Shown in pieces: positions 29,454 through 47,959 of a stretch of DNA of 64,000 bases. The number at the start of each line of letters is the position of its first letter. Within the stretch, counting starts at the first letter, position 1. The translations under genes and the position numbers were made by a program. Source of the stretch: a virus. The notes beneath the pieces were generated by a model. That model had not been told where the DNA came from. It saw only the letters and a list, made by a program, of their open reading frames with translations, and did no database searches. The stretch spans positions 24,671 to 88,670 of the IMG/VR virus record IMGVR_UViG_3300031951_000076. The stretch is one strand, 5' to 3'.

Positions 29454-30773
29454 TTATTCAAAAGATATATCAAAAAAGTTACCTCTTTGTTTTATATCAT
29501 CTGTGTTAATTCCTTTGTAATTTAAAAAAGGAATAACATCTATATAAAACTGTTCTTGATCTTCTTTCCAACCTGGGTGAAAAGAAATATGCATTGGTAC
29601 ATTTAAATCCCAAAGAACTGATTTTTCTTTCAGCAGTTCTTGTTCATGACCTTCAACATCTATTTTTATAACAGAGATATTACTTTCAGATAGGTTATAT
29701 TTTTCTAAAATTTCTTTAATTGAAATACAATCAACTGATATTAAATTTTCTGTAGCTGAATCTCTTGTAATACTTTCCCCTAAAACAGCAGAACCTAATT
29801 GTAATTTAGTTTTTGTAGAAACAGCTTTGTCTTCTAAAATAATATTTGATATATTATTTAATTTAATATTTTCTACAAACTCTGCATGAGCAACTGGATC
29901 AGGTTCAAAACATATACAGTTCTTTGAATATTTTGAAGCTACTAATGATATAGGACCTATCCACGATCCTATATCTATAAATGTTTTATTTTTATCAAGT
30001 TTTGGAACAATAAAATCAAAGGTTGATTGTTCCCACCAAGAATAATGATCTAACCAAAATTTTGTTGTAACTGGTGTATTTTGTACATTAAATTCCAAAC
30101 CACCTTTATTTACCTTATGACTCATATTAATAGTTGATTTTAATTTGGTTCCCCAACATGATATACTTGATGCTGCAGTGTTTAAATAATATTTCCATTC
30201 ATCTGTAATATTTTCATCTGTTAAATACCACGGTGTGTGTTTTATACAATATGGTTTATCTAATCTTAAGGCATCATATGCAAAACCAGAAAATGGTCTA
30301 TATAAAGCAAATGTTGTATCAATATGAGCATCCCATCCAATATCTTTTCTGTTTATCCAATACTTACTTTCCCATTCTCTTGCTTGCCTTCCTATTTCTG
30401 TTTCAGGTAAATCACTTATATCTAATGAAAATCCAACTTTAAAAACATCAGTGTTTTCTAAAACATTAATCATTTTATCAAGCCAATCATTTGGAACGTC
30501 ATCATACAAGCAATCTGAATCAGCTATTATAAAATAGTTATCGTTAAAGTAAGGTCTTAATTGATCACCCCATACAGAATGGGGACCATTATTTTGACTA
30601 GAATAAACAACAGTTACACCTGAGTTATTATAATATTCTAATAATGGAGGATATGTAGATTGCTGATCAAAAATTACAATCTCAATTCTTGGTTCTTTTA
30701 AAAGAAAGTTAACAGCGTTTTTTAAAGAACTAATGAGATTTCTATTGACAATAAATGCTTTAATCTTTTTCAA
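29454..30773 (-). CDS. Glycosyltransferase fused to FkbM-type methyltransferase, 439 aa
   Basis: A two-domain protein. Residues about 1-215 form a GT-A type glycosyltransferase: FIVNRN start, an FDQQST strand, the metal-binding DSD at 85-87 and a downstream acceptor region rich in Trp/Tyr. Residues about 235-439 form an S-adenosylmethionine-dependent methyltransferase of the FkbM type: FIDIGSWIG (265-273), FEPDPVAHAEF (289-299) and IKIDVEGHE (369-377). The natural reading is that a sugar is added and a hydroxyl on it or a neighbouring sugar is then O-methylated, a common cap in bacterial surface glycans. The start overlaps the upstream glycosyltransferase by 14 bases. It directly follows the fibre genes in the same direction, so the phage's own Thr/Ser-rich fibres are plausible acceptors; this is inference. 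Modification of host envelope glycans is the alternative. Confidence 0.88.
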   Translation of the reverse strand: MKKIKAFIVNRNLISSLKNAVNFLLKEPRIEIVIFDQQSTYPPLLEYYNNSGVTVVYSSQNNGPHSVWGDQLRPYFNDNYFIIADSDCLYDDVPNDWLDKMINVLENTDVFKVGFSLDISDLPETEIGRQAREWESKYWINRKDIGWDAHIDTTFALYRPFSGFAYDALRLDKPYCIKHTPWYLTDENITDEWKYYLNTAASSISCWGTKLKSTINMSHKVNKGGLEFNVQNTPVTTKFWLDHYSWWEQSTFDFIVPKLDKNKTFIDIGSWIGPISLVASKYSKNCICFEPDPVAHAEFVENIKLNNISNIILEDKAVSTKTKLQLGSAVLGESITRDSATENLISVDCISIKEILEKYNLSESNISVIKIDVEGHEQELLKEKSVLWDLNVPMHISFHPGWKEDQEQFYIDVIPFLNYKGINTDDIKQRGNFFDISFE

Positions 30774-31509
30774 GAAAATCTTTTAAAAGTTGTTTATAAT
30801 CTTGTTCCCAATGTGGGTTCAAATATACATCACCTGTAGGAACATAACCTAACTTACGCATGTATTCAACATGTTCACTATGTCTTTGTATCACATTTGG
30901 TCTGTCACTAGTATCTGTACCTGCACCACTCATATGATAACTTCTACCTCCCCACATATAAAACCAACTCACTTCATTGTCTGGTGGAGCAGCAAATACA
31001 ACATTTTGTGAATTATATCGAATATTCATTACAAATGTCATATCATATCCTGCATTCTCATGTGGATGTTTTCCAAGATTTTCCCAAATTCTTTTACTAT
31101 AAACAATGCCTGAATTACCTAATCCTGTAATATCAGTAATTGCTTTATTGTTAAAGAAAACTCCACGATGCCAGTGTAAAAGATCTGTATCTTCTTTAAA
31201 ATACTTTGCAATATTTGTTAGATGATTTGGAAGTGCAACATCGTCATCGTCCCAAACTGCAATTATATTAGATGAACATTGACTTACAGCAAAGTTTTCT
31301 TTTTCACCAATTGTTTGAAATGTGTAATCTAAATTATAAATTTTTATTTCAGGATGGTCAAAGATTAATTTTTGTAAAGGGTAATCGTTTACAATAATCA
31401 TTTCTTTTTTACCAGGATAGTCTTGATTAATAAAAGAATAAATACTTTCTTCTAATAAATCCACTCTACCATACGTTATACATTTTGCAGATATAAAAGG
31501 ATAATTCAT
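30760..31509 (-). CDS. Family 2-like glycosyltransferase, 249 aa
   Basis: A GT-A fold glycosyltransferase. The N-terminus ISAKCITYGRVDLLEESIYS followed by FINQDYPGKKEMIIVND is the classical GT2 nucleotide-sugar binding region. WDDDDVALPNHL (Asp 87-90) is the metal-binding motif. A C-terminal acceptor domain contains several Trp/Tyr/His residues. It lacks membrane segments, so it acts in the cytoplasm. It overlaps both neighbouring genes (14 and 4 bases), so the three glycosyltransferases are one coupled unit. The sugar and acceptor cannot be read from sequence. Confidence 0.88.
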   Translation of the reverse strand: MNYPFISAKCITYGRVDLLEESIYSFINQDYPGKKEMIIVNDYPLQKLIFDHPEIKIYNLDYTFQTIGEKENFAVSQCSSNIIAVWDDDDVALPNHLTNIAKYFKEDTDLLHWHRGVFFNNKAITDITGLGNSGIVYSKRIWENLGKHPHENAGYDMTFVMNIRYNSQNVVFAAPPDNEVSWFYMWGGRSYHMSGAGTDTSDRPNVIQRHSEHVEYMRKLGYVPTGDVYLNPHWEQDYKQLLKDFLEKD

Positions 31510-32432
31510 ATAAGCGCTGATGTTTTAGAAGTGTTAATAATTTCTTCAGCATACTTATATGAACAAAAATCTTTATTAAGATTTTGAATTTCTATATCAT
31601 ATGGTAATACTAATTGATACTTGCCTTTAAAAAATAAATCAGTTCTGTCAGAAGTTACACCTGCATTATGAAATATAGGATGTTTATCCCATTCACTAAC
31701 TGGAGATGTAGCCCAAGAAAAAGAAAGTTTATTAGTTACTAATACTTGCTTATCCCAAAACCAAAGATTCCAAAGAACTGCCCACATATCAGCACACCAA
31801 ATTTGTAGTTCATGATATGAAGGATCTAATGCTTTATCTTTATCAATTTCATGTGTAATTAATCTAAAAAGATTTTCAGCATCATAATATACTTTTTTCC
31901 AAAACTCTGCAGGAATTCCTTTTAAAATATATTGTGCTCCACCACTATTTTTTTCTTGCTCAATAATGTATTGTTTATTAACATTAACTATATCAGCCAT
32001 AAAATCAAGATACTTTTCACCTTTAGATCTAACATAGTTTGCACCAATATAACTTACAGTATCGCTTACATAACAATTATCATCTTCAAGAAGTCCTTTA
32101 AAATCTAATGGTTTTGCAAAAATAATATCGCAGTCATGATAGAAAATAGTTTCATGTTCTAATTCAGGATGCTGCAACCAATGCTTGTACAAAACATGGG
32201 GACGTATACTGGATATATAACAAGGTTTTTGCCTGTTATCTGGATAAAAATAAAATCTCGTATCAGTGTATTTTGCTGCAAGTTTTTGCCATTTTTCAGA
32301 AACATGTCCATGGTGCCCACATACAATTTGAATATCTTTTGGATCTACACCATTTCTAACAAAGTTATTAATCATAACTTCTACTTGCCATGTATAATAA
32401 TCTATGGCAGGTTGTACGCATAAAAATTTCAT
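31506..32432 (-). CDS. Putative glycosyltransferase with H-D-C-D motif, 308 aa
   Basis: The start (FLCVQPAIDYYTWQVEVMI) and the FYHDCDIIFAKPL segment (DxD-type D100/D102) are typical of GT-A enzymes that handle a nucleotide sugar with a divalent metal. The rest is Trp- and His-rich (IFHNAGV near residue 265). The layout resembles the peptidyl-serine galactosyltransferase and hydroxyproline arabinosyltransferase group, which modify Ser or Hyp in structural proteins; I offer this resemblance cautiously, from memory. It is the first gene of the sugar unit, 34 bases after the last fibre gene, with an AT-rich TACAAATATATT element just upstream of its start. Confidence 0.75.
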   Translation of the reverse strand: MKFLCVQPAIDYYTWQVEVMINNFVRNGVDPKDIQIVCGHHGHVSEKWQKLAAKYTDTRFYFYPDNRQKPCYISSIRPHVLYKHWLQHPELEHETIFYHDCDIIFAKPLDFKGLLEDDNCYVSDTVSYIGANYVRSKGEKYLDFMADIVNVNKQYIIEQEKNSGGAQYILKGIPAEFWKKVYYDAENLFRLITHEIDKDKALDPSYHELQIWCADMWAVLWNLWFWDKQVLVTNKLSFSWATSPVSEWDKHPIFHNAGVTSDRTDLFFKGKYQLVLPYDIEIQNLNKDFCSYKYAEEIINTSKTSALI

Positions 32433-32466
32433 AAATGTTGGTTTTTTTACAAATATATTAAATAAA

Positions 32467-34935
32467 TTAACAATATCCTATTGCTTGTACAAATGATGTT
32501 CCTCCAAAAATACCACCTTGAAAACATACAGTATTACCAGGCGCAAGTGAAAAGTTATTTGACCAGTTAACACAATAATCTGACCAACCACTTACACTTA
32601 CAAAAAAAGTAGATGTATTTAAATATTCAACAGATGGTGCAACTACATATGTAGGAGAAGTGCTAGTAGAACCATCTGTAAAAAATACTCTTAATCTGAT
32701 TTCAAAAAATGTTGCAACTGGAGGAGTAGCATAAAGACTAAGTATATTACATATATTTAAAAAACCAGATTGTACATTAGTTGCAGCAGGACTGCTTTGT
32801 GTCCAACTTAACCAATTTTGTTGTCTATGATCTAGAAATACAGCGCTAACACATTTACAATTATCACCTAAAAGACCCCATAGAATTGTTTGATTACAAC
32901 CACTTCCCCCAAAAGGTGCTGATGTAACAGTTGCTATTGTAGCGCCTGGATAACAAGTTCCACCTGGATTTCCTGAAATAAAAGGTGTGCAAGTATTTGT
33001 ACCTGAAACACATGCGGGTGCAATTGTTGTAGTGCTGGTAGAAGTAGTTGTTGGTGGACCTGTCACCACAAAACTATTAGATGCAGGACAAATTCCACTT
33101 ACACTCACAATTCTTAACTGAACAAGAGATCCTATTGGTATTTGAAAAGGTAACACAGTTGATGAAGATAAACAACCTGTACCTCCTACCACATTATTCC
33201 AAGGAGTCCAAGATGTACCTGTACCACTTGTATCAGCTCTAAATTGAACTTGAGAACATGTGTTACAACCTACTGTTGGAATTGTGTAATTTATTTGAAC
33301 AGTTTGACTACCCGTGCCACCACCTGATATTGAACGAGCATCAGTAATTGTTGGAGAACAGCATATTGGAGGAGCTAACGTAGTAGTTGTACTAGTTGAT
33401 GTTGTGCTAGTAGTCGAAGTGGTAGTCGAAGTGGTTGTAGTAGATGTAGAAGTTGTTGTTGTAGTTGGATTACATACCCCTCGATTTAATGCTTTAAAAC
33501 CATAAGGATCAGGAAGATTGCTATTAGGTACATTTACCCATAAATTAGATACACAACTTAAAATACAACTAGCTGGGTAAGGACCAGCTAAGGGACTATA
33601 AGCTACAATAGCTGATGGTGCAAATGGAGGTGTTAAAGATGTGTTAGTTGCATAAGCAACAACCCACGCACCTCCTGGCAGATAAGTAGAACTATTATCC
33701 CAATATATGTATAGTACTTCAGGATCTGGTGGATCAACAATAAATTTATACCACACCTTACCATTTACGAGTGTTGTCTCAGGGAATAAACTTTGTTCAA
33801 TATTACCAAAGTTTTCTGAAAATGCATAAAAACAAATATTTTCTGGACATTTTCCTAACGCACTACTGCATACTGCAGGTGTTAATGCATTATTACAATC
33901 AGGAGTCCATTGATTAGTTGAACTACTTATAGGTAAAGCGTTACCACCATTATCAAGTGTTTGAAAAATTGAACCTGCTCCTAAACCATCTATATCCCAA
34001 ACCCATTTATTAATAGAAGGTAGCCAATAAACAGCTAAACTAGTTGCATAACCATACCACACTTTACCATTATATAAAACTGGTGATGTACCGATTGGTA
34101 AATCTTCATAACCTAGACCACCTTGTTCTGCTGCAACTATAAAACACATTGTTGGATCAATAGTAGTTGTAGTTGTTGTGGAACTAGTTGTTGTGGAGCT
34201 TGTTGTAGTGCTTGTGCTACTTGTTGTTGATGTTGATGTAGTAGTACTTGTTGTTGAAGTACTAGTAGATGTAGTAGTACTAGTTGTTGAAGTAGTAGTT
34301 GTAGTGGGGCAATTTTCTAAAAGTGAAGAATCTATAAACCCTACACTTGTTCCACCAACTACTTGTGGTGTCCATAATGGAGGATTTATACCATTAGTAA
34401 CTGGATATTGTGCTGTTGATGGAAGTGTTTGAATTATTCCACCAAATGATGAATCTTCATGAACCCACTGTGTACCATCATAATACACTCTTCTTAATGG
34501 AGAATTGTCAAAAACATATTGAGGTTTACCATTTATTTGAGAAGCATTACCGCCTGATGATAATTGTATATTATAAAAACAAGCATTACCTACACATTCT
34601 ATATATAAATTAAAACATATATTAGGAAATACAGTAGTTGTGGTCGTAGTAGAAGATGTTGTAGTTGTTGAAGAAGTTGTACTACTTGTGGTGGTGCTAG
34701 TTGATGTACTGGTAGTAGTAGTTGGTAAAATAATTGGTATATTACAACTACTAGTATTTGACGTAGCTATTAAAGCTATTACACCTGGTGATACATCAAC
34801 TAGCATGCCTGCTAACAAATCTGCTGTATTTACAACAGATGGGTTAACAGTACCGCCAGCAGGTATTGTAGATAAAGTCATCGTTGGACCAAATCCAGAA
34901 CCAAGAGGACCATTTATTTGTACAAATACAAACAT
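32467..34935 (-). CDS. Modular Thr/Ser-linked fibre/adhesin protein, 822 aa
   Basis: Residues 1-70 are an anchor domain shared with three other proteins here (GFGP near residue 15, a conserved VSPG turn, Cys near 65). Then alternate: Thr/Ser linker (about 71-100), a beta domain with NGKPQY and VYYDGTQWV (105-205), linker (207-260), two more domains of the same NGKxWY type (263-365 and 368-485), linker (487-520), a fibronectin-III-like domain (522-625), a short linker and a Cys-containing C-terminal domain (640-822). No signal peptide, as expected for a virion protein. Likely a tail fibre or decoration adhesin binding surface sugars or proteins. It is the last fibre gene before the glycosyltransferases. 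Domain names are judged by eye. Confidence 0.8.
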   Translation of the reverse strand: MFVFVQINGPLGSGFGPTMTLSTIPAGGTVNPSVVNTADLLAGMLVDVSPGVIALIATSNTSSCNIPIILPTTTTSTSTSTTTSSTTSSTTTTSSTTTTTTVFPNICFNLYIECVGNACFYNIQLSSGGNASQINGKPQYVFDNSPLRRVYYDGTQWVHEDSSFGGIIQTLPSTAQYPVTNGINPPLWTPQVVGGTSVGFIDSSLLENCPTTTTTSTTSTTTSTSTSTTSTTTSTSTTSSTSTTTSSTTTSSTTTTTTIDPTMCFIVAAEQGGLGYEDLPIGTSPVLYNGKVWYGYATSLAVYWLPSINKWVWDIDGLGAGSIFQTLDNGGNALPISSSTNQWTPDCNNALTPAVCSSALGKCPENICFYAFSENFGNIEQSLFPETTLVNGKVWYKFIVDPPDPEVLYIYWDNSSTYLPGGAWVVAYATNTSLTPPFAPSAIVAYSPLAGPYPASCILSCVSNLWVNVPNSNLPDPYGFKALNRGVCNPTTTTTSTSTTTTSTTTSTTSTTSTSTTTTLAPPICCSPTITDARSISGGGTGSQTVQINYTIPTVGCNTCSQVQFRADTSGTGTSWTPWNNVVGGTGCLSSSTVLPFQIPIGSLVQLRIVSVSGICPASNSFVVTGPPTTTSTSTTTIAPACVSGTNTCTPFISGNPGGTCYPGATIATVTSAPFGGSGCNQTILWGLLGDNCKCVSAVFLDHRQQNWLSWTQSSPAATNVQSGFLNICNILSLYATPPVATFFEIRLRVFFTDGSTSTSPTYVVAPSVEYLNTSTFFVSVSGWSDYCVNWSNNFSLAPGNTVCFQGGIFGGTSFVQAIGYC
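34156..34315 (-). repeat. Thr/Ser linker tract of the 822-aa fibre
   Basis: About 53 codons of almost only Thr and Ser, read on the minus strand. The codons vary (ACA, ACT, ACC, TCT, AGT, TCC), so it is a protein-level repeat rather than an exact DNA repeat. Shorter tracts of the same kind lie at 33376-33475 and 34630-34730. Confidence 0.85.
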
Positions 34936-34947
34936 ACTTTATATAAA

Positions 34948-35580: not shown

Positions 35581-35617
35581 AGTTTTTAAAATTTAAAAGT
35601 TAAAATATTTAGGGTTA

Positions 35618-35634
35618 TACAAATATAATATAAT
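35618..35634 (-). promoter_or_regulatory. AT-rich promoter-like element before fibre-tip gene
   Basis: ATTATATTATATTTGTA (minus strand) lies 38 bases upstream of the start at 35580. It contains TATATTTG, which matches the TAnnTTTG -7 box of Bacteroidota promoters, and resembles the two identical elements at 50332 and 58509. I saw no convincing -33 box. Confidence 0.3.
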
Positions 35635-38600
35635 CTATTGTTCTGTTATTAACAAATCATTGTTTTCAGCTTGAAGCTCATCATTTAATTCAGTTGATAT
35701 AAAGTTACTAGGATCTGCAGTGGTAGTAGTTGTAGTACTAGTAGAAGTTGTACTTGTTGTAGTTGGAGTCGTACAAGTACCATCAATATATTCAATTTCA
35801 ACAGCATCTGTACTTGAAATTGTTAAAGATGATGTTGTATAATTTCCAGTACCTATAACATCTATACACTCAACTATAACACTGTTAATTTTAATATTAA
35901 GTTTTGATGTAGGTGCAGCTGTTCCTATATTAATAGTCAAAGCACCAACATAACCACCATGAACACCTTCTGCAGTTTGACCATTTGTAACAGGTAAACT
36001 ACCTACTGTTATAATATACCAAGAAGGTGTAATATTATCTAAACTAGATCCTGCAGATGTATTATTAGTTACAAACAAACTTCCAGAAGGTAATGTTGTT
36101 GTGGTTGTAGTACTAGTTGTTGTGGTCGTACTAGTTGAGGTAGTCGTTGTTGTAGTAGGTTCCTCTGTAGTAGTTGTTGTTGTACTAGTTGTAGACGTTG
36201 TTGATGTCGTAGTAGTAGTAGGCTCTTCTGTAGTCGTAGTTGTAGTACTTGTTGTGGTCGGTTCTTCAGTTGTCGTAGTAGTTGTTGAAGTAGTTGTAGT
36301 TGTGCTTGTGGTAGTTGTAGGACATATTGATTGCTCTATAACTAAATCTTCATCATTCTCAGCAGTTATGGAATCATCTCCTTCACTTGCTAACAAACAT
36401 AAAGTAGCAGGATCTATTGTAGTAGTTGTAGTTGTACTGGTTGTAGAAGTAGTGGTAGTGGTTGGCTCCTCTGTAGTAGTAGTGGTCGTACTAGTTGAAG
36501 TAGTCGTAGTTGTAGGTTCCTCTGTGGTTGTAGTAGTTGTAGAAGTTGTACTAGTAGTAGGTTCTTCCGTAGTCGTAGTTGTAGTACTGCTACTAGTAGT
36601 AGTTGTGGTAGGTTCTTCTGTTGTAGTTGTTGTAGTAGAAGATGTTGTTGTACTGCTAGTAGTAGTAGTTGTTGGTGCACAAGACTGACAATCGTTAGGG
36701 AAACCTGATAGCAAACATCCAACTTCACATGGGGTAGTTGTTATATCCCCAGTTATATTAATTGGTGTTCCAGCAAGAACACAAGCTGTTATAGTGATGT
36801 TTGTTCCTATTATACCAATAGTATCTGGAGTTCCGTTACATTGTATATAATCTATATTTCCTCCTACTGTAGGGCCTGAAGTAAAGCTATAGCAGAAGCA
36901 ACAAGACTCAGCTACAATATTATCATCATTCTCAGCTGTTATAGGATCATCACTTTCAGTAGATATGAAACACAATGTAGCTGGATCTAACGTGGTAGTA
37001 GTCGTAGTGCTTGACGTTGTGGTAGTACTAGTTGAAGTTGTAGTAGTGGTGGGTTCTTCAGTTGTTGTAGTTGTAGTTGTCGGCTCCTCAGTAGTAGTAG
37101 TAGTGGTTGTAGGTTCCTCAGTAGTAGTAGTAGTGGTAGTACTTGTACTTGTTGTAGTAGTCGAAGTAGTAGTTGTACAAGTTGTTACAAAACTTTTTGC
37201 TCTTACATTTCCTAAAGAATCTGTAAATGCTATCCAATAAGTTCCTACAGCAACACCTCCTTGTGAATATACTACAGATGTACCAACTGTCCAACTAGTA
37301 TTAGATAATGCTGCAGCTTCACTTGTAAACCAAAAATTACCAAAAGCATAACCTGTGCCTGAACCTCCTGTTGGGTTATTTGCTGTAACCTCAATTGATT
37401 GAGTTGCAGCATTTACGCATACTACAGATACTATATCAAAGTCTAATGGACAAGGTGATTGTTCTATAGCTAAATTATCATCATTTTCCCCTGTTATAGG
37501 ATCATTCCCTTCTGTAGCTATCAAACAAAATGTAGCAGGATCTAATGTTGTACTAGTTGTTGTCGTTGTTGTGCTAGTGGTACTAGTTGTAGTAGTAGAC
37601 GTTGTAGGTTCTTCAGTTGTTGTGGTCGTTGTAGTACTTGATGTTGTTGTTGTCGTAGGTTCTTCTGTGGTTGTCGTAGTTGTACTAGTACTTGTTGTAG
37701 TAGACGTTGTAGTGGTGCTTGTGCTACTTGTAGTTGTAGTTGTACTAGTAGTAGTTGTCCCAGGACTATCACATAATAAACCAAATGCAAAGTTAGTTCT
37801 GTATTCACTATATGTAGCCTGAATCTGAATTTGTGTATGTGTTCCGGGAAACTGTACAATACCATAACCTTCATTACCAGATATAGTGTAACTATTAGAT
37901 CCAAATACTACACCGCTGTCTCCCACTGTAAGGTCTGTTGGTGTAACAGCACAAGGTCCAGCAGCATTAAATCCACATCCAGGAAGTTCAATAAATGGTA
38001 CATTAGGTTTAAACAACTGCTGTGTTACAGGGCTACCCAAAGACCATATACCAAGAATAGGATCAGCAATTGGTGATGAGAAATTAAAGGTGATTGTCAC
38101 TATTCCAGCAATATTACCTTTAATATAGTATGAATTACCACTTGGTGCAACATTACCATAACTTGTACAAGTAATACCATTAGTACATTGTACAGGTTCA
38201 ACACCTGTGGGATTAAGAGGATCAAATCCATCACCAGGACCTGCAGGACCATTGGTAGACATTGTGATACCAATTATACCTTGTTTAGCAGTATTTATAG
38301 ATCCTTCAGTATAATTATCACCAACATTCTGCCATACAATTTGACAAAGTGTAGTAGTAGTTGTTGTTACAGGACATTCTTCAGTTCTAAGTTGATCATC
38401 ATTTTCTGCTGTAATTGGTTCATCAGCTTCAGTAGCAAGTAAACAAATATTGTTTGGATCTTCAGTAGTAGTAGTTGTAGTAGAAGATGTAGTAGAAGAT
38501 GTTGTAGAAGATGTTGTAGGGATTGTACCTGTACCACCACCATTGCTACAAGGATCTTCTGTAGTTGTAGTTGTAGTGGATGTTGTTGTAGTAGTAGACG

Positions 38601-39435: not shown

Positions 39436-39442
39436 TATTAAA

Positions 39443-39760
39443 TTATTTAAAAGTTACTGTAGCTGTAAAACTACAATTTAGTGGTGGTAATGTTGTTTTA
39501 CAATGCGGCAAGTTTTTAATTACATTTTCTAATATTATACAAAGTGAATCACCATCTTTTAAACCATAACATTCTATATTAGGTCCGTGATATTGAATAC
39601 ACTCACAATCATAAAATTCTTCACACGGTTCACAATTAGGATTAATAGTTGTAGTGGTAGTCGTAGTTGTTGTACACTTAGGTACACAACTAGGACATAC
39701 AGTTTCATGACAACCGCATGAAGCACTACATCCACAACTACAATTACAATGACAACTCAT
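39443..39760 (-). CDS. Short Cys-rich anchor-type protein, 105 aa
   Basis: It starts with CxCxCxC sequence (MSCHCNCSCGCSASCGCHE), has a short Thr linker, then the anchor motif CIQYHGPNIECYGLKDGDSLC shared with three larger proteins, and ends with a Leu/Pro helix. It has almost no other domain, so it may be a stand-alone adaptor or a rudimentary fibre base. The Cys pattern could bind metal or form cross-links once outside the cell. It lies 7 bases before the giant adhesin that carries the same anchor, consistent with gene duplication. Confidence 0.75.
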   Translation of the reverse strand: MSCHCNCSCGCSASCGCHETVCPSCVPKCTTTTTTTTTINPNCEPCEEFYDCECIQYHGPNIECYGLKDGDSLCIILENVIKNLPHCKTTLPPLNCSFTATVTFK

Positions 39761-39773
39761 AATTTTTTATTTT

Positions 39774-42700
39774 TTAAGGTACAGGATCTTGACAGGTTTC
39801 ACCTAAAGGATCGCACATTTTAGAAAAAACTGATTTTATACCAGTACCAGTAGCAGGATTAAGGCCAAATTGAACACATCTCCTATACTTTGTATTAGCA
39901 TCAGTAAAAGTTAAATTTTCAATTGTAGGAAGAAACTCACAATTTGAATATGAAACAGTTCCTGTAAAAGGAAATGCTAATGCACCGCTTGCTTCAAATG
40001 TAATACACATACACGATAAATCAACTGAATTACAATCTTGACCAGTAGCAATATTACCATATGACATTTTGTTACAAGCGTTAGTTCCTGTTACGCATTC
40101 CCATGAAGATCCAATTGGATAATCAAGATTTTGACCAGTATAGCTAAGTAAAAAGGCATATAATGTTCCAACAGGATCGTTCAAATCACTAACAATTTCC
40201 CATCTGGCAAGTCCTATATTCCAATAAATATATAGAGAAATTTGTGAAATACTTGGTGATGGGAATGTAGGTGTTTGTACAACATAATAAGCTTTTCCAT
40301 TTATATTTCCTTGTGGTGTTGCTTCACTATCATATACAGAATACTCTGTAGCACCATCTATTCCACCAATAAAGTTTACACATATACCACTGCATCCATA
40401 AACTGTTACAGGAGGATTGCCACCAGTTGATTCTGCAAAACATGTACCTAAGTTAAGAACATACTTTGGTGATATGCCAGAAACATTAGTTGCAGTAACA
40501 TCTTGTAATGAAGAGGTACAAACATTAACATAACTTACTGGATTAGTTGATGCTTCTGCAAAAGTAATAACTTGAGTTACACCTTCACAATCTGGATAAG
40601 TTACTTGAGCAGCAAAACCACCTTGGATTTGATAATCTATATTTAAACAATTACAACAACTGCCTATATTACTTGAAACAACAAAACCACCACCACCAGT
40701 TATATTATTTACATTTACCCAATCTAATGATGTTCCATTTGGTGCTGGAACAACACCATTATTAAAAGGTACATTTAAGTATGCTGCTAACGTACCATTT
40801 ATAGCATTAATTCTAATTTCCCAACGAGTTCCAGACCATACTAAATAACCAGTATTTGCCGTATTATTAATACTAGTAAATCGAAATACTGGTTGATTAT
40901 TAACAATATCTATTGTTGTAGAAGATTGAGATGAATAACCATTTGCACCTCCAACAGTTTCAAGACTTGTAACTAAACAAGCTGATTGACACAGTAATTC
41001 ATTATAACTAGTAACTTTTAAAAATAATGTTGAACTACCAAAAGGTGCCACAGGCTGCTCAACCCATGCTGTTTCTGGTGGAGTTAATCCAACACCAACT
41101 GTTGAATTTGTAGCTGTAATAAAACCAATAGCTACAGGAGGTGTTACGACAGGTACTGCAGTTTGTGCTGCTACCCATTGAGTACCATTATAATAAACAG
41201 TAAAATGATATGTTGTTACACCTAAAGTATCTGTACCAGAATACCAATATTTACCATTATATAAACCATTATTAGTCAAATCAAAATTAAAACCAATTGC
41301 TTCAGCATTCCATGATGAACAAAGCGGTACTCTTGGACAAGATGGATTATTAAAATCAAGAGGTGCTGCTAAAGCAAGCGTCCCACTACCATATGGAAGT
41401 TCACCAGTTACAGTCCAATTATTTGTTGTTGGAGGATATATGCCTACACCAGCATCAGTATTTGTGGAAATTTGATTACTTGTTGGAATTGGAAATACAG
41501 GTGGATTAATTGTATGTGCTGCTATCCACGTTGTACCATCATAATATACAGTAAGATATGAGTTATCTGGTGCAAACATTGTATTTGTTTTTGGTGTTGT
41601 GTACCAAGCTTTACCATTATAAATTCCACCAAATTGCATTTGAACTTGACCATTGCCAACAGGTGTTGCTTCATTACCCCACTCAGCACACAATGTAGGT
41701 TGTATTGTAGTGGTCGTTGTAGTTGATGTGGTTGACGTAGTAGAACTAGTTGTGCTTGTAGTGCTACTAGTTGTTGTTGTGGTTGGAGGACATGATATAC
41801 GATTGTTACAAAGTTCAGTTGTACTAGCTGAAACACCATTTGGTAATGGTGTTCTAAACATAGTTGCACACACACGTGTACCATTAGAAACAGATACAAC
41901 TTTATCAAGATATGTAATACAATCTACAACAGTAACATTTACAGGTGAACCTAAAGAAGATATAAATGTATAACATCTACAAGGTAAATTTAAGGTTGTA
42001 GTTGTTGTAGTGCTTGTAGATGAAGTAGTACTGGTACTTGTGGAAGTGGTTGTACTACTTGTTGTAGTACTTGTAGTAGATGTACTGGTAGTGCTAGTAG
42101 TAGTTGTTGTTGGTACTGGACAAGCTGTATTATTAACACATGGTATAATAGATGAAATAAGTTGTGACGTTGCACCATTATTATCTGAAGTACCGACAAA
42201 TCCACTTCTTGCACATATAGCAGCTACATTTCTAGAAATAGTTAATGTCTGAGATATACCGCTACAATCATCCCAAAATATATCTGTACTAGAACCAATA
42301 GGTCCATTTGAAATAACTGAATAACAATAACATGGAATTGTAGTGGTTGTTGTTGTACTAGATGTAGAAGTAGTTGAAGATGATGTAGATGTCGTTGAAC
42401 TACTCGTAGTAGTCGATGTAGATGTTGTTGTAGAACTACTAGTTGTTGTGGTACTTGTAGAAGTGGTAGTCGTAGAACTTGTAGTTGTAAACTGTGGTTT
42501 TGGTGTAGTTGTGGTAGTAGTTGAACTAGTACTTGTAGAAGATGTGGTTGTACTACTAGTAGTTGATGTACTACTTGTTGATGTAGTTGTTGAAGTGGTT
42601 GTACTAGTTGTAGGACAAGGTGTAACATCACAAAGAGGTCCAGGTGTAGAAATAACAATAGGACCGCATGCATCAATTGCTGTTACTGAAATTGCACAAA

Positions 42701-43979
42701 CTATGTGTTGTTGATTTGGTCCAATATAAATCCCCCATACAAGATTACCATTTCTATCTATATATGAATAATACCCACCATTAGGGCCACCATCAATTGT
42801 AAAACAATAAGGAGGAGGTAAAGTGGTTGTTGTCGTTGTACTTGTGGTGGTAGTTGTTGATGTTGTCGTAGTTGTTGTAGTTGTACCAAGAGATGTGTTA
42901 GTACATTCAGGTAATGAAGATGCACCATCAATTTTAAAAGATACACTACCAGCAGGAGGAACAATTACACCATAAGGAGGAAAATGTTGAAATTCATAAA
43001 TGTTACCATCTTTATTACCTAAGTAAATTTTACCCTGTGCTTGAAATACACCAAAAGGAAAATCTACAATACCTGTTACATTAACCGTTTCTTCAAGCGT
43101 TCCTGTTGCGTAATCATACTGATATACAAACTTTTGATTTGTTACAATATCAAAAGTGGTAACTATAAACTTACCGTTAGATGTTAATAAAAAGTCACCT
43201 GATATTTGATCATTAATATCTAATTGAAAACCTGGAATAAAAGTATTCGTAGTTAAATCATATTCCCCAACAGTAGAAAAACCACCCACTGATAAAATAG
43301 TATTTACTACAAGAAGTCTTGTATTATTTATAGCCCAAAGACCATCAGATGAATTAAATCCTACAGGCCATGTGTAAGTAGCTACAGGATTTATAGAAGA
43401 TGTAAAAGGATTAATTGTAATATTCCATTCTACAAATTGTCGCGTTACTAAATTTATTAACCAAAGTTTTGTACTCGTATGAGCTACGTCAGGTGAGTTA
43501 GGACCAAACTGTATATTTAAAAGAGTACTTGTATTAGTTATTACATTATATTGATAAACTTGTGAACCAGAGTTTAATATAACTAAACAAGGATCAGCAG
43601 TTGTAGTGGTGGTCGTAGAAGTAGTTGTTGTTGTAGATGTAGAAGTAGAAGTACTTGTTGTAGTTGTAGGTAATGGACAAATTGTAGTAGTAGTAGTAGT
43701 TGTAGAAGTAGACGTAGTACTAGTTGTTGTAGTACTTGTAGTGGTGGTCGATGTTGCACAACTTACGTTTACAAAAAACGGTTGATTCCATGTATCTTGA
43801 GATACAATTTTAACAACAGTGGTACCATTAGGAACTAAAACATTATATCCAGCTGGTTGAAATGCTGATAAAGGAATATTTGTAATAAAAGGAATTGCGT
43901 AACCATCTGCATTTGTATATAAATCAAATGGTCCACTACCTGGTGATACGTTAAGTGATATGTTTATTAAAAATGACAT
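39774..43979 (-). CDS. Giant mucin-like modular adhesin with beta-propeller, 1401 aa
   Basis: Residues 1-75 are the GPF-type anchor domain (GSGPFDLYTNADGYAIPF). Then come two Thr/Ser linkers, a beta-propeller (about 128-358; repeated strands such as QVYQYNVITNT and VGEYDLTTNTF), a linker, a Gly-rich domain, the longest Ser/Thr linker (about 453-548), two CxCY domains separated by a linker (548-620, 664-728), and a run of NGKxWY domains (762-875, 885-1000, 1195-1300) mixed with further Cys domains. The C-terminal half lacks linkers. Adhesin function is inferred from architecture and from position among fibre genes. Thr/Ser content makes the linkers possible O-glycan acceptors for the glycosyltransferases encoded downstream. 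Confidence 0.8.
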   Translation of the reverse strand: MSFLINISLNVSPGSGPFDLYTNADGYAIPFITNIPLSAFQPAGYNVLVPNGTTVVKIVSQDTWNQPFFVNVSCATSTTTTSTTTTSTTSTSTTTTTTTICPLPTTTTSTSTSTSTTTTTSTTTTTTADPCLVILNSGSQVYQYNVITNTSTLLNIQFGPNSPDVAHTSTKLWLINLVTRQFVEWNITINPFTSSINPVATYTWPVGFNSSDGLWAINNTRLLVVNTILSVGGFSTVGEYDLTTNTFIPGFQLDINDQISGDFLLTSNGKFIVTTFDIVTNQKFVYQYDYATGTLEETVNVTGIVDFPFGVFQAQGKIYLGNKDGNIYEFQHFPPYGVIVPPAGSVSFKIDGASSLPECTNTSLGTTTTTTTTSTTTTTSTTTTTTLPPPYCFTIDGGPNGGYYSYIDRNGNLVWGIYIGPNQQHIVCAISVTAIDACGPIVISTPGPLCDVTPCPTTSTTTSTTTSTSSTSTTSSTTTSSTSTSSTTTTTTPKPQFTTTSSTTTTSTSTTTTSSSTTTSTSTTTSSSTTSTSSSTTSTSSTTTTTTIPCYCYSVISNGPIGSSTDIFWDDCSGISQTLTISRNVAAICARSGFVGTSDNNGATSQLISSIIPCVNNTACPVPTTTTTSTTSTSTTSTTTSSTTTSTSTSTTSSTSTTTTTTLNLPCRCYTFISSLGSPVNVTVVDCITYLDKVVSVSNGTRVCATMFRTPLPNGVSASTTELCNNRISCPPTTTTTSSTTSTTSSTTSTTSTTTTTTIQPTLCAEWGNEATPVGNGQVQMQFGGIYNGKAWYTTPKTNTMFAPDNSYLTVYYDGTTWIAAHTINPPVFPIPTSNQISTNTDAGVGIYPPTTNNWTVTGELPYGSGTLALAAPLDFNNPSCPRVPLCSSWNAEAIGFNFDLTNNGLYNGKYWYSGTDTLGVTTYHFTVYYNGTQWVAAQTAVPVVTPPVAIGFITATNSTVGVGLTPPETAWVEQPVAPFGSSTLFLKVTSYNELLCQSACLVTSLETVGGANGYSSQSSTTIDIVNNQPVFRFTSINNTANTGYLVWSGTRWEIRINAINGTLAAYLNVPFNNGVVPAPNGTSLDWVNVNNITGGGGFVVSSNIGSCCNCLNIDYQIQGGFAAQVTYPDCEGVTQVITFAEASTNPVSYVNVCTSSLQDVTATNVSGISPKYVLNLGTCFAESTGGNPPVTVYGCSGICVNFIGGIDGATEYSVYDSEATPQGNINGKAYYVVQTPTFPSPSISQISLYIYWNIGLARWEIVSDLNDPVGTLYAFLLSYTGQNLDYPIGSSWECVTGTNACNKMSYGNIATGQDCNSVDLSCMCITFEASGALAFPFTGTVSYSNCEFLPTIENLTFTDANTKYRRCVQFGLNPATGTGIKSVFSKMCDPLGETCQDPVP
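42336..42620 (-). repeat. Longest Ser/Thr linker of the 1401-aa adhesin
   Basis: About 95 codons of Thr and Ser, broken once by TPKPQF. Two shorter tracts of the same protein lie at 41993-42120 and 41703-41795 and two more at 43600-43755. Confidence 0.85.
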
Positions 43980-43982
43980 TTT

Positions 43983-44903
43983 TTAACATATATTTATTCG
44001 AGCTACACTATTTCCTGTAACACATGAATTAAATAGTACAGTTCCTGTTGGTGAAGTTATTCTAAGCCAGTTTATATTAGAGTGTGGTATATTATTACCA
44101 CATACAGCATTATACGTTGTCATCGCAGCTGGAATAGAAATATTAATAGTTGTAGATCCAGGTGTAATTGTTGCTGCAACAGCTAATGCCTGCGCTTGCG
44201 ACAGAACAGTTTTACTATATCTTGAATATCGATTCCACGTTGCTGATGGATTTAAAGCAGTTGGTATATTATTATAATCTCTACATATATTTCTTCCAGA
44301 AAGTGATAAAGCACCACCTGTACCAAAATCATTATTTAAAAGAATATCTCCAAGATAAACACCATTGCCATAAATTTCAAACATTGCTTGATTACACACA
44401 TGATCACCAATATCACCCATACAAGGATGTGTATAACCAGCTGGTAATAATTGCAACTCATTAAAATCATGTATATATATACCTTCTATTATCAGACCAT
44501 TTAAACAATTTACTACAGGTCTTACTGTTGTAGTTGTAGTTGTTGATGTTGATGTAGAGGTAGATGTTGATGTAGAGGTAGATGTCGTACTAGTAGTTGA
44601 GGAAGTACTAGTTGTTGTTGGTAATCTAGTAGTAGTAGTAGTTGTTGTACTCGTAGTTGTCGTACTAGTAGTAGTTGTTGTTGTTGGAGGTATATTAACA
44701 ATTATACTATTTGTACATTTACCATTTGATCTAATTTTTACACTTGTTGTAAAATCAGGTACATTCACAGTTACTCCAGATGTAAGATTTGCTTTTGAAA
44801 TATTAATACCATAAGCAACGATATATCCATCCACATTTGAATAAATCATAAATGGACCTGTATCACCACCTGCTGTATTTAATTTTACAAAAATAGCTTG
44901 CAT
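43983..44903 (-). CDS. Thr/Ser-linked fibre protein, 306 aa
   Basis: A GPF-type anchor domain (1-73; GDTGPFMIYSNVDGYIVAYG) is followed by a Thr/Ser tract of about 55 residues and a C-terminal beta-rich domain (about 128-306) with four or more Cys and the sequence IYGNGVYLGDILLNNDFGTG. This C-terminal domain has no repeat elsewhere in the window. It is the simplest example of the anchor-linker-head plan. The gene sits 3 bases from its downstream neighbour and 1 base from its upstream neighbour, so it is translated in step with its paralogues. Confidence 0.78.
   Translation of the reverse strand: MQAIFVKLNTAGGDTGPFMIYSNVDGYIVAYGINISKANLTSGVTVNVPDFTTSVKIRSNGKCTNSIIVNIPPTTTTTTSTTTTSTTTTTTTRLPTTTSTSSTTSTTSTSTSTSTSTSTSTTTTTTVRPVVNCLNGLIIEGIYIHDFNELQLLPAGYTHPCMGDIGDHVCNQAMFEIYGNGVYLGDILLNNDFGTGGALSLSGRNICRDYNNIPTALNPSATWNRYSRYSKTVLSQAQALAVAATITPGSTTINISIPAAMTTYNAVCGNNIPHSNINWLRITSPTGTVLFNSCVTGNSVARINIC
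44523..44690 (-). repeat. Thr/Ser linker tract of the 306-aa fibre
   Basis: About 56 codons of Thr/Ser with one R-L-P break and alternating Ser-Thr pairs, placed between the anchor and head domains. Confidence 0.85.
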
Positions 44904-44904
44904 C

Positions 44905-46062
44905 TTAACTTATATTTTTACAAACATTGAAACCTGTTATTTTATAAACAACACTAGGGCTTGCTGGTATATTCTGAGGATTTTGAAAAATGTTAACACC
45001 ATTAACAATTAATGTTTCTATACGCATTCTAGGTGCAGCACCAGGTGCATTAATTAATACAAAATCACTAATGGCATTAGCAGGAAGATTAATATTAAAA
45101 TTATATTGATCTAACAAAGTTGTACAATTTGTATCAGAATATCTTTTTGCAACACCTGTAATAGTAAGTGCTACTGGATTAATTCCTAATGACTTAAACA
45201 CCTCAATTCCTATAAAACCATCAAAATTTGTTGGTGAAATAATAAATGTAGCCACTGAAGGATCAAATACTGTTGTTGTAGTTGTTGTACTTGATGTAGT
45301 TGTTGGTGGTGGTATACATGATTCATTTGACTGCTGTTGTGAAGAACCAGCTGCACATGCTTTACCAAGAGGTGTCACAGTAACAAAAGATGTATTAACA
45401 GATATTGTATTTGTTCTAGCACAATAGTATTTTGTTGAATTTCCACTTATGTTTTCTGTGTAACTAAAATTATTACAACCATCATAAGATATTCCTTGAG
45501 TATTTGCTGAATTATTTTTAACACTATAACATTGACAACGTAACGTAGTTGTTGTAGTAGTAGTTGATGTTGATGTTGTAGATGTTGTTGTAGTACTTGT
45601 AGTACTTGTAGACGTAGTCGTTGTTGTTGGAGCAGGAGTACAACAAATATTTGTATCATTATATGAACCAGGACCTACAGATTGTGTAATAGGTTTAGTA
45701 GCATCAATACATCTTGTAACAGTTATATTACGAATTGTTAAAGAACTAGGTGTTATTCTTCCACATTGATAAAAAGTAAATGTAGTTGGTGTTACACCGC
45801 CTGTAAATGTAAAGTTTCTACAAGGACATTTAGTTGTTGGTACAGTTAATAAAACTTCATCACATTTTTTTCCAGAATTAGATTGAACACTTACTTTAGC
45901 TGTTGCATTTGGAACAATCATGTAATAACCAGATTGCAATTGTAGTTTAGTAACAGTTGATGGCCATATAGTAGGATTGTTTAAATTATCATAAAGTATA
46001 ATACTATAAGGACCTGTATCAGGTCCTGAATTGTTTAATGTTAAAGCTATAGTTTTTGACAT
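44905..46062 (-). CDS. Thr/Ser-linked fibre protein with two Cys domains, 385 aa
   Basis: A GPF-type anchor (1-78; GPDTGPYSIILYDN) runs directly into a Cys domain (about 78-140), then a Thr/Ser linker (143-173), a CxCY domain (174-250; CQCYSVKNN...YDGCNN), a short linker and a beta-rich C-terminal domain (266-385). The two Cys domains are members of the same repeated family found in the larger adhesins. This fibre may display several small binding heads. One base separates it from the next gene. Confidence 0.78.
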   Translation of the reverse strand: MSKTIALTLNNSGPDTGPYSIILYDNLNNPTIWPSTVTKLQLQSGYYMIVPNATAKVSVQSNSGKKCDEVLLTVPTTKCPCRNFTFTGGVTPTTFTFYQCGRITPSSLTIRNITVTRCIDATKPITQSVGPGSYNDTNICCTPAPTTTTTSTSTTSTTTTSTTSTSTTTTTTTLRCQCYSVKNNSANTQGISYDGCNNFSYTENISGNSTKYYCARTNTISVNTSFVTVTPLGKACAAGSSQQQSNESCIPPPTTTSSTTTTTTVFDPSVATFIISPTNFDGFIGIEVFKSLGINPVALTITGVAKRYSDTNCTTLLDQYNFNINLPANAISDFVLINAPGAAPRMRIETLIVNGVNIFQNPQNIPASPSVVYKITGFNVCKNIS

Positions 46063-46069
46063 TAATAAT

Positions 46070-46351
46070 TTAATTAATCGACACTAAATCAATTGAAATT
46101 TGTAATAAACAACAGTCATCTTTAGGAAATGCTTTTGGTAGTATTTTATCAAAAAACAAATCACAAAGAGATTCACCTTTTTTTATATCGTAACAATCTT
46201 CATCTTTACCTGAATATTTTACACAACAAAGATCTATTACATCTTCACACTGTTCTTTTGGATTACAATCAGGAAGACATTGTACACCTGGTGGTGTACA
46301 TTGTAAACAAGGTTCACAATTTGGATCAGATGTATTACAATTACAAGCCAT
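46070..46351 (-). CDS. Short Cys-rich anchor-type protein, 93 aa
   Basis: The protein consists almost entirely of a Cys-rich start (CNCNTSDPNCEPCLQC) and the shared anchor motif CCVKYSGKDEDCYDIKKGES, followed by a short helix (LFFDKILPKAF) and two more Cys. It resembles the 105-aa protein at 39443-39760 and the N-termini of the 1266-aa and 524-aa proteins. It is likely a structural adaptor in the fibre assembly. Confidence 0.75.
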   Translation of the reverse strand: MACNCNTSDPNCEPCLQCTPPGVQCLPDCNPKEQCEDVIDLCCVKYSGKDEDCYDIKKGESLCDLFFDKILPKAFPKDDCCLLQISIDLVSIN

Positions 46352-46384
46352 AGTTAATTAATTATTCAGATACGGCACTATCTC

Positions 46385-47959
46385 CTAAACACATATTGAT
46401 TGTAAATTTAATGTACCTCCTGTTGCAGGAACAACAACATCATTAATATAATAATACGCTAAAGGAACATTACAAGAACAACCTAGTGATTGATCAGGTG
46501 TTGTTGTGTTATATGAAAATTCATACGGAACTCCTTCACAATCAACAAATGATACAAATATTTTACCATTGTAACCAGGAACTGTATTACCTGATGCGTT
46601 ACCTAAATCTGTTGAAGAAGGTGTAACAGTCCATTCATAACAAGGTCCACAAGTAGTAGTAGTGGTAGTAGTACTGGTAGTAGTAGTACTAGTAGTTGTT
46701 GAAGTGGTCGTTGTGCTTGTTGTTGTTGACGTGCTGGTTGTTGTTGTTGTTACAGGTTGTATAACTTGTACAATTTGTTTACTACATGTTTTACCATCTT
46801 TTATAATGCAACCATTCACTGTAACTGTATATGGTAAATTTGGATTCAAAGAAGATGTACTTACATCATATGTTACACCAATAGGATTTGTAGATTCAAC
46901 AACTAAATCTAATGTTGTAGTGTAAGTGTGACCATTTCCATCAGTAATAGAAACAGTAGATAATGTAGGACAATTTGCAAAACCAGATGGAATTACAGTA
47001 CCACTATTAAAAATTAAAGTAACTAAATTTCCTGCTGTATTTCTTGTAGCTTGATATACTAAAAAGAAAGCAGAACAATCCACAGAGCAACATGTTTTTA
47101 AATCATATATTGCTGATCTTATATCACAAACAGTAAGCCATAAATTTTGAAAAGACTGCGCTAAATTAGCAGGACTAATTGTCCACCCAGGAATAGATGC
47201 CATTGTCCCAGTTTGACTTAAAGCATTTTGTGAACTTAATAAATTACATTGTGCAGTTGTAGCAAGACCTATATCTGATGGAGTACCAAGTGAACTAGTA
47301 AAAACACATAGTTGCTGATCAAGTAAACCTAAAAGAATATCCATTTGAATAGGTACACCTTGTGTAGCTATACTATATGAACAAAAAGGTGTAACAAGTG
47401 GTGGAACATAACCTGGGTCATTCTCAAGACTAGTAACCCTTGTTTGTAAATCTAAAATTTGTAACTTTTGTAAATTAATTTGTTCATTAAGAGAACAAAC
47501 TTTATTTGCAACAAGAACTGCATATTCACTTAACTTAAGACTTGTAACAATTAAACCAGTAGACGGATCAACATACCATAAACATTCAGGAAGAGGAAGT
47601 GTAGGTTCAGAATACTCTCTATCAATTACTTCTGCTAAACTACTTGATGTATTAAAAGAAACTTTACCCACACAACAAATGGCATTTGTTAAAAGCTGTA
47701 TAACATTTTCTAACTTTTTATCTGTAGGTATTTTTAATGTACTGCACGCATCAACAAGACAATCAAAATCAACATCTGATAAATCAAGTGCTTCTTTTAC
47801 TTTACATAGCTCATCTGCAAGTTTATATACTACATCAGAAACAGTATCACCTTTACAAAGATTGATACATTTAAGATCAGGGCCCTGCCATATCACACAA
47901 TTTGATGATATAGGTGAGCAATTTTCTTTATCAGAATTTGAATGATACGGTGTCATCAA
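46385..47959 (-). CDS. Fibre protein with helical shaft and Thr/Ser linker, 524 aa
   Basis: The N-terminus carries the shared anchor motif in the form CVIWQGPDLKCINLCKGDTV (about 21-40), followed by a helical region with coiled-coil character (about 50-180; VCSLNEQINLQKLQILDLQT). A beta-rich region follows, then a Thr/Ser linker (401-436) and a C-terminal CxCY-like domain (438-524; CYEWTVTPSS ... FVDCEGVPYEF). The WQGP...INLCKGD pattern is frequent near tail genes of Bacteroidota phages as I recall. Likely the first long fibre of the adhesin module, with an attached variable head. Confidence 0.78.
   Translation of the reverse strand: MMTPYHSNSDKENCSPISSNCVIWQGPDLKCINLCKGDTVSDVVYKLADELCKVKEALDLSDVDFDCLVDACSTLKIPTDKKLENVIQLLTNAICCVGKVSFNTSSSLAEVIDREYSEPTLPLPECLWYVDPSTGLIVTSLKLSEYAVLVANKVCSLNEQINLQKLQILDLQTRVTSLENDPGYVPPLVTPFCSYSIATQGVPIQMDILLGLLDQQLCVFTSSLGTPSDIGLATTAQCNLLSSQNALSQTGTMASIPGWTISPANLAQSFQNLWLTVCDIRSAIYDLKTCCSVDCSAFFLVYQATRNTAGNLVTLIFNSGTVIPSGFANCPTLSTVSITDGNGHTYTTTLDLVVESTNPIGVTYDVSTSSLNPNLPYTVTVNGCIIKDGKTCSKQIVQVIQPVTTTTTSTSTTTSTTTTSTTTSTTTTSTTTTTTTCGPCYEWTVTPSSTDLGNASGNTVPGYNGKIFVSFVDCEGVPYEFSYNTTTPDQSLGCSCNVPLAYYYINDVVVPATGGTLNLQSICV
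46652..46755 (-). repeat. Thr/Ser linker tract of the 524-aa fibre
   Basis: About 35 codons of Thr/Ser between the beta-rich region and the terminal Cys domain. A comparable tract in the 385-aa fibre lies at 45543-45632. Confidence 0.82.

Follow-up and report, generated by a model that had tools for sequence, protein, structure and literature searches.

Threonine/serine tracts of phage proteins co-occur with phrog_4417, a predicted family of protein O-glycosyltransferases

Introduction

The 64-kb stretch of DNA analysed here, referred to as the window, covers 64,000 nucleotides (positions 24,671 to 88,670) of the 88.7-kb virus record IMGVR_UViG_3300031951_000076 from IMG/VR and derives from a phage that is classified below as crAss-like. 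On its minus strand, genes encoding proteins with long threonine/serine (Thr/Ser) tracts are directly followed by three glycosyltransferase genes, named GT1, GT2 and GT3-FkbM, and this arrangement raises the question of whether the enzymes decorate the tracts of the neighbouring proteins. According to the best explanation, which we regard as quite probable, GT1 initiates the O-glycosylation of virion proteins in the cytoplasm, and the sugar is then extended and capped by the products of the downstream genes. This reading is supported by the co-occurrence of GT1 and tracts, their relative positions, a protein that exists with and without a tract, the Thr tails of structural proteins in phages of Gram-positive bacteria, the sequence grammar of the tracts, the predicted fold of GT1, the composition of the downstream cassette and the lack of membrane segments. 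The pattern connecting GT1 with tracts is strong and general, and the glycosylation chemistry is predicted.

Thr/Ser tracts and glycosyltransferase genes of the window

With a tract defined as a Thr/Ser stretch of at least 12 residues, 31 tracts were detected in six minus-strand proteins of the window, the number of proteins already given in an earlier note on this sequence. The tract length of up to about 95 residues given there was too high, as the longest unbroken tract comprises 50 residues (42339-42488, minus strand; residues 498-547 of the protein encoded by 39774-43979) and the longest tract with EEP breaks 85 residues (36418-36672, minus strand; residues 922-1006 of the protein encoded by 35635-39435). 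The EEP breaks, ascribed to all six proteins, were found in 35635-39435 and were absent from the other five. The tracts are not due to chance, because a Thr/Ser run of at least eight residues was present in just one of the 1,319 genes located on 115 neutrally chosen viral contigs. Slippage during DNA synthesis was ruled out as their source by the mixed codon usage of the tracts, in which each of the four Thr codons and each of the six Ser codons is represented.

The GT1 gene (31506-32432, minus strand) encodes a protein of 308 amino acids that belongs to the phrog_4417 family and is the predicted initiating glycosyltransferase of the Thr/Ser tracts. It overlaps the GT2 gene by 4 bases, the GT2 and GT3-FkbM genes overlap by 14 bases, and all are transcribed in the direction of the tract genes. 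The earlier description of three overlapping glycosyltransferase genes in the same orientation, the last one fused to an FkbM-type methyltransferase, was borne out, with GT1 recognised by its fold, GT2 and GT3 by PF00535 and the fused domain by PF05050.

Co-occurrence of GT1 and Thr/Ser tracts

In a forward sample of 52 non-redundant loci encoding GT1 relatives, a tract, here a Thr/Ser run of at least eight residues, was present in 44 loci. Tract genes occupied 35 of the 50 positions directly upstream (-1) of GT1, and within five genes of GT1 they were found at 69 of 230 upstream positions versus one of 226 downstream positions. Among the eight tract-negative loci, L042 and L045 are devoid of upstream sequence and L019, L078 and L079 carry shorter or broken Thr runs nearby. 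A reverse sample consisted of contigs picked solely by the DNA pattern (ACN)9, and all 11 GT1 genes detected therein were the next gene after a tract gene. The simple rule that any tract implies GT1 was ruled out, since most of the records selected by (ACN)9 or T9 lack phrog_4417. Because each of the 11 GT1 genes follows a tract gene but most (ACN)9 contigs are without GT1, GT1 nearly always goes with tracts and not vice versa, and tracts do not strictly need GT1. In L194, which has a tract gene but no phrog_4417, the tract gene is followed by a gene for 360 amino acids (L194:5735-6817) whose product resembles a GT-B glycosyltransferase on visual inspection, and some Thr-tract phages may thus use a different enzyme family.

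The neutral sample comprised 80 contigs that were chosen through a neighbouring exonuclease gene, independently of both GT1 and tracts. The earlier note had named tract-bearing fibres without the enzyme, or the reverse, as the observation that would count against its proposal; among these relatives 14 contigs contained both elements, 65 neither of them, one short contig GT1 alone and none a tract alone (Fisher p 1e-14, uncorrected for kinship and only indicative, as the contigs are related). Three to four joint gains or losses map to the exonuclease tree, and one of them separates L334 (both) from its supported sister L336 (neither). In the contig L200, tracts adjoin the exonuclease and GT1 is absent, but this contig is a fragment that ends inside the exonuclease gene. 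The co-occurrence of GT1 and tracts is near-obligate. Additionally, the N-terminal domain of the tract protein encoded directly upstream of GT1 (32467-34935) is present among relatives in the GT1-positive ones only.

Tracts and GT1 might also constitute a single mobile tail cassette moved by recombination, so that their linkage would not reflect an enzyme-substrate relationship. This view is consistent with the crAss-like relatives, in which the tract genes lie beside GT1 and both are exchanged as a block; tracts, however, also grew within the conserved protein encoded by 46385-47959. Its homologues in 60 GT1-negative loci contain no Thr/Ser run above six residues, whereas the window copy has a 33-residue tract and the copies of L345 and L363 have tracts of 18 residues. 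Moreover, GT1 and tracts are repeatedly found as a pair, in settings of the crAss-like, Chryseobacterium, siphophage and Herelleviridae type, and the core capsid and tail-tube proteins of Gram-positive phages, encoded several genes away from GT1, bear Thr tails with matching ends. We consider a mere cassette linkage very improbable.

Thr-tailed structural proteins in phages of Gram-positive bacteria

The GT1 family is represented in 74 annotated phage records, the majority from phages of lactobacilli, enterococci, staphylococci and lactococci. In the loci of the family scan, Thr/Ser runs of at least six residues were present within eight genes of GT1 in all 80 cases and at position -1 in 75 of them. 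The major tail protein gp50 of Enterococcus phage phiFL1A has the C-terminus TTTTTSTTTTTTSSTTTTTTTQASSK, and its gene overlaps the GT1 gene, gp51, by one base. In Lactococcus phage 1706, the capsid and the major structural protein (ORF13) both end with TTTTTTTTTTHHD or nearly so, that is with 9-10 Thr followed by HHD, and GT1 is encoded next by orf14. Staphylococcus, Arcanobacterium and Lactobacillus phages display the same layout of a Thr-tailed structural gene followed by GT1, and the candidate acceptor proteins of the Gram-positive phages are annotated as structural. The Thr tails are located at the C-termini of capsid and tail-tube proteins, while the window tracts form internal linkers of other proteins. 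Distant members of the GT1 family adjoin TTVKP or TETQTQTQ repeats.

The residues following the tract were identical between the capsid and the tail-tube protein of the same phage in 26 of 56 pairs, compared with a mean of 4.8 in a shuffled control that ignores kinship. The occurrence of the same tag on unrelated capsid and tube proteins is as expected if one enzyme reads the tag.

In three records of Staphylococcus and Arcanobacterium phages, a very Thr-rich reading frame overlaps or directly follows the Thr-tailed major tail gene and precedes GT1 (L086:5203-5925, L088:4164-4926 and L551:7117-7930). The position of this extra frame suggests a frameshift-made form of the tail protein with a longer tail.

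Sequence grammar of the predicted acceptor sites

The tracts of the window are bordered by proline, which is found at position -1 of 24 and at position +3 of 27 of the 31 tracts. Ser accounts for 24% of the tract residues overall versus 2 of 186 residues at the last positions, and the tract end reads TTTTTT. Among 165 tracts of relatives, Pro occurred at +3 in 118 and before the tract in 111. A preference for Pro at -1 and +3 is also typical of the mammalian GalNAc-transferases that act on mucins, and this likeness is a resemblance, not a kinship.

Predicted fold and cellular location of GT1

GT1 matches the phrog_4417 profile with an E value of 1.4e-75 over positions 1-291 of 293 and is a full-length member of this family, which is listed in PHROG as 'unknown function'. 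A literature search outside bioRxiv found no work on phrog_4417 or on Thr-tailed phage proteins. An AlphaFold model, calculated from an alignment of 47 relatives, reached a predicted local distance difference test (pLDDT) value of 97, and its best Foldseek matches were all GT-A enzymes: UDP-glucose:glycoprotein glucosyltransferase (UGGT, 4e-8), GT8 enzymes, LgtC, glycogenin and the xyloside xylosyltransferase XXYLT1. Motifs invariant in the 47 sequences are H99-D100-x-D102, representing a DxD metal site, and the C-terminal H255-N-A-G258. By its model, GT1 is a GT8/GT24-like glycosyltransferase of the GT-A type with a confident fold and a candidate for the retaining catalysis of this class.

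The nearest folds act on protein, glycan or glycolipid acceptors, which speaks against the idea that the enzymes glucosylate phage DNA as a protection from restriction. Phage DNA glucosyltransferases are common, and a deoxynucleotide monophosphate kinase is encoded elsewhere in the record; no hydroxymethylase was recognised among the scanned proteins, which do not include every gene of a probably incomplete record, and neither the co-occurrence with Thr tracts nor the adjacency to structural genes is predicted by a modification of DNA. We judge this possibility extremely improbable.

No membrane segment is present in GT1, GT2 or GT3-FkbM, which fits a cytoplasmic action of the enzymes. The same finding disfavours a modification of the host surface, leading to superinfection exclusion or seroconversion, with the tracts being plain flexible linkers located nearby by chance. 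Serotype-altering phage glycosyltransferases are well known (passages in PMC12619734 and PMC10955285), and a capsule-type family (Caps_synth) occurs in the downstream cassette. A host-surface role, however, does not predict the matching tails of capsid and tube proteins, and it is disfavoured by the joint gain and loss of GT1 and tracts and by the presence of GT1 alone in Gram-positive capsid/tail operons behind Thr-tailed structural genes. It appears quite improbable.

Cellular homologues of GT1 in Bacteroidota (L520-L548) in many cases comprise about 570 amino acids, with a second glycosyltransferase-like domain. They adjoin LanC-like genes, C39-peptidase ABC (ATP-binding cassette) exporters and GG-leader peptides with Thr-rich cores (e.g. 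L523:6001-11033, L540 and L537). These are lanthipeptide-like clusters for ribosomally synthesized and post-translationally modified peptides (RiPPs), possibly with glycosylated products, and this branch of the family also looks peptide-directed.

The variable cassette downstream of GT1

GT2 (30760-31509, minus strand; PF00535, Pfam 3.4e-11) is predicted to extend the sugar and has an adjacent homologue in few relatives. The GT3-FkbM fusion (29454-30773, minus strand) combines PF00535 at residues 12-139 with PF05050 at residues 281-417 and is predicted to act in extension and capping. Its FkbM methyltransferase domain is encoded by 29523-29933 (minus strand; PF05050, 2.6e-8), and a fusion of this type was detected among the GT1 loci only in L004/L005. 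A methyl cap may be expected from membership in the FkbM family.

Among 85 genes at positions +1 to +3 behind GT1 (loci L001-L080), 18 encode PF00535 proteins, followed by Gly_transf_sug (6), FkbM (4), GT6 (3) and GT29 (2), and the same positions also harbour GT25, radical SAM/SPASM, Caps_synth and further methyltransferase genes. The GT6 (ABO type), GT29 (sialyltransferase type) and radical SAM/SPASM genes are unusual for phage structural regions. GT1 is the constant step, and GT2 and GT3-FkbM represent one version of an exchangeable gene set.

This variability gives weight to a restricted version of the model, in which GT1 glycosylates the tracts, the two downstream genes act elsewhere and the glycan consists of one sugar without a methyl group. 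Even the closest relative L001, with 84% identity in GT1, differs in its downstream genes by a GT6 gene and a separate FkbM gene at +3, and many Gram-positive phages carry GT1 without an annotated glycosyltransferase next to it. On the other hand, glycosyltransferases and sugar-type methyltransferases are frequent among the downstream genes, these genes overlap GT1 in the window, and the FkbM gene of L001 is an independent case. A single-sugar modification is unlikely by our estimate.

Tract proteins and genomic setting

The tract gene located 35 bases before GT1 (32467-34935, minus strand) encodes 822 amino acids with tracts of 30, 48 and 29 residues. It is preceded on the minus strand by the genes for proteins of 1266 amino acids with 42% Thr+Ser (35635-39435), of 1401 amino acids with seven tracts (39774-43979), of 306 amino acids with two tracts and an N-terminal module common with its neighbours (43983-44903), of 385 amino acids (44905-46062) and for the conserved tail-region protein (46385-47959). 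A seventh protein, small and Cys-rich (39443-39760, minus strand), remains below the threshold with a Thr run of 9 residues. The six tract proteins are probably virion components, as judged from gene order and homology. For 46385-47959, the structure model was of moderate quality with a weak fibronectin-III-like match, and an identity as a fibre was not found.

Between the tracts of 35635-39435, a motif like [TS]E..[DE].I.AENDD.L..EQ is repeated about six times. A Cys-rich module (C..Y/W.GP...C....GD....V) is common to 46385-47959, 46070-46351, 39443-39760 and 35635-39435, and another N-terminal domain, seemingly common to four tract proteins, is detectable in 43983, 44905 and 39774. These are probably two attachment modules.

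The tract genes and the subsequent GT1-GT3 genes are flanked by the head genes on one side and by those of the ring proteins on the other. The phage can be assigned to the crAss-like phages on the basis of its Crassvirales hallmark proteins, because the head protein, portal and TerL match PHROG head-and-packaging families and the gene 26805-27482 specifies crAss tail ring protein 2 (CrAss_Ring_2, 2e-23); a CrAss_Ring_1 match was below its cut-off. The host is likely a member of the Bacteroidota. In another phage record, L556:6724-7575 matches spore photoproduct lyase and belongs to the replication part.

Proposed mechanism and its scope

In the proposed mechanism, the cytoplasmic GT-A enzyme GT1 would put the first sugar on Thr (and Ser) residues of dense virion-protein tracts, recognising a Pro, a Thr/Ser run that ends in about six Thr, and then x-x-Pro or the C-terminus. 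In the window phage, the acceptors would be interdomain linkers of tail-region proteins. GT1 would act on newly made structural proteins and assembly would follow glycosylation; GT2 and GT3 would lengthen the glycan, and the fused FkbM domain would probably methylate it. The dense O-glycans may keep the linkers extended and protease-resistant or may shield the particle. The tracts, the gene order, the fold class of GT1, the co-occurrence, the acceptor grammar and the modular cassette are direct findings, whereas sugar attachment, the kind of sugar, methyl capping, the virion location of the tract proteins and the benefit belong to the inferred part of the mechanism.

Several points weigh against this mechanism. 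No glycan was observed, and the virion location of the six window proteins is deduced from gene order and homology. Searches of Pfam, NCBIfam and PDB with the GT1 sequence gave no match, so that the fold alone placed it, and its matches to PDB folds are distant (template modelling score about 0.4-0.57). Furthermore, GT1 is without a nearby tract in 3 of the 52 forward loci (L010, L039 and L041), of 50 additional viral records with tracts, the majority being fragments or short-tract records, just 2 contained phrog_4417, and the cellular Bacteroidota homologues are found in RiPP clusters instead.

The 14/65/1/0 co-occurrence and the lack of membrane segments give strong support to the core of the earlier proposal, a cytoplasmic glycosylation of the Thr/Ser-tract proteins by enzymes of the phage itself. 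The scope of the proposal was too narrow, since only GT1 is constant, the other two enzymes are exchangeable and the predicted acceptors in Gram-positive phages are capsid and tail-tube C-termini. We lean slightly towards a more general view, according to which phrog_4417 is a widespread phage-borne family of initiating protein O-glycosyltransferases, not yet described. The family would read a portable mucin-like tag, either P-T/S-TTTTTT-x-x-P or a C-terminal poly-Thr stretch, that Bacteroidota and Gram-positive phages have attached to proteins of the capsid, the tail tube and the tail fibres. A swappable cassette would then build glycans specific to each phage; methylated glycans would be among them, and possibly also sialic-acid-like or ABO-like ones.

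If this is correct, a phage protein family of unknown function would be assigned a role, and virion glycosylation, for which mycobacteriophages have so far provided the demonstration, would also be spread over crAss-like, lactic acid bacteria, enterococcal and staphylococcal phages. A compact cytoplasmic enzyme that modifies short Thr tails could also serve as a practical tool for glycosylation, and the tag and the enzyme are amenable to immediate testing in isolated phages that carry the family, among them Lactococcus phage 1706, Enterococcus phage phiFL1A and Chryseobacterium phage MA9V-3.

Comparison with known glycosylation systems

The dense, Pro-bounded Thr/Ser runs of the window, which qualify as Pro/Thr/Ser-rich repeats, resemble the acceptors of eukaryotic mucin-type O-glycosylation, whereas GT1 has no sequence relation to the solved GalNAc-transferases (no PDB sequence match) and would act in the bacterial cytoplasm, not in the Golgi. 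The serine-rich repeat adhesins of Gram-positive bacteria are glycosylated in the cytoplasm by GtfA/GtfB and variable further glycosyltransferases. Shared features are a constant initiating step with a variable downstream set, the co-encoded acceptor and enzymes and the cytoplasmic location; in contrast to the adhesin systems, GT1 has no Pfam or NCBIfam match to the GtfA/GtfB families, the acceptor is Thr-rich and no accessory secretion genes were recognised with the window system.

The general O-glycosylation of Bacteroidetes is periplasmic and addresses single D(S/T) sites (D-S/T-x) of exported proteins. It is likewise O-linked and the likely host of the window phage is a Bacteroidota, but the window tracts are not of the D(S/T) form, with no Asp inside the listed tracts and none of the 31 preceded by Asp, and the enzymes are predicted to be soluble and are phage-encoded. 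Work related to the Bacteroidetes system is found in PMC8698959.

The earlier note knew of no described phage system of this kind, which was too strong a statement. According to passages in PMC12619734 and PMC12894461, both citing Freeman 2023, and also in PMC10877033, mycobacteriophages glycosylate the C-termini of their capsid and tail-tube proteins, and the former two add that these glycans affect antibody recognition. Both systems would employ a phage-encoded glycosyltransferase for virion proteins, with capsid and tail-tube C-termini as acceptors, as predicted for the Gram-positive GT1 phages. By contrast, none of the 74 phage records with the phrog_4417 family is of Mycobacterium, the capsid and tail-tube C-termini of mycobacteriophage Che8 are without a Thr/Ser tail, and the system described here is characterised by dense tracts with a Pro/Thr grammar, by internal tail-region linkers as further predicted sites and by a variable sugar cassette behind GT1. 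Accordingly, phage-encoded virion glycosylation is known in kind from mycobacteriophages, whereas the enzyme family, the acceptor tag and the modular cassette differ.

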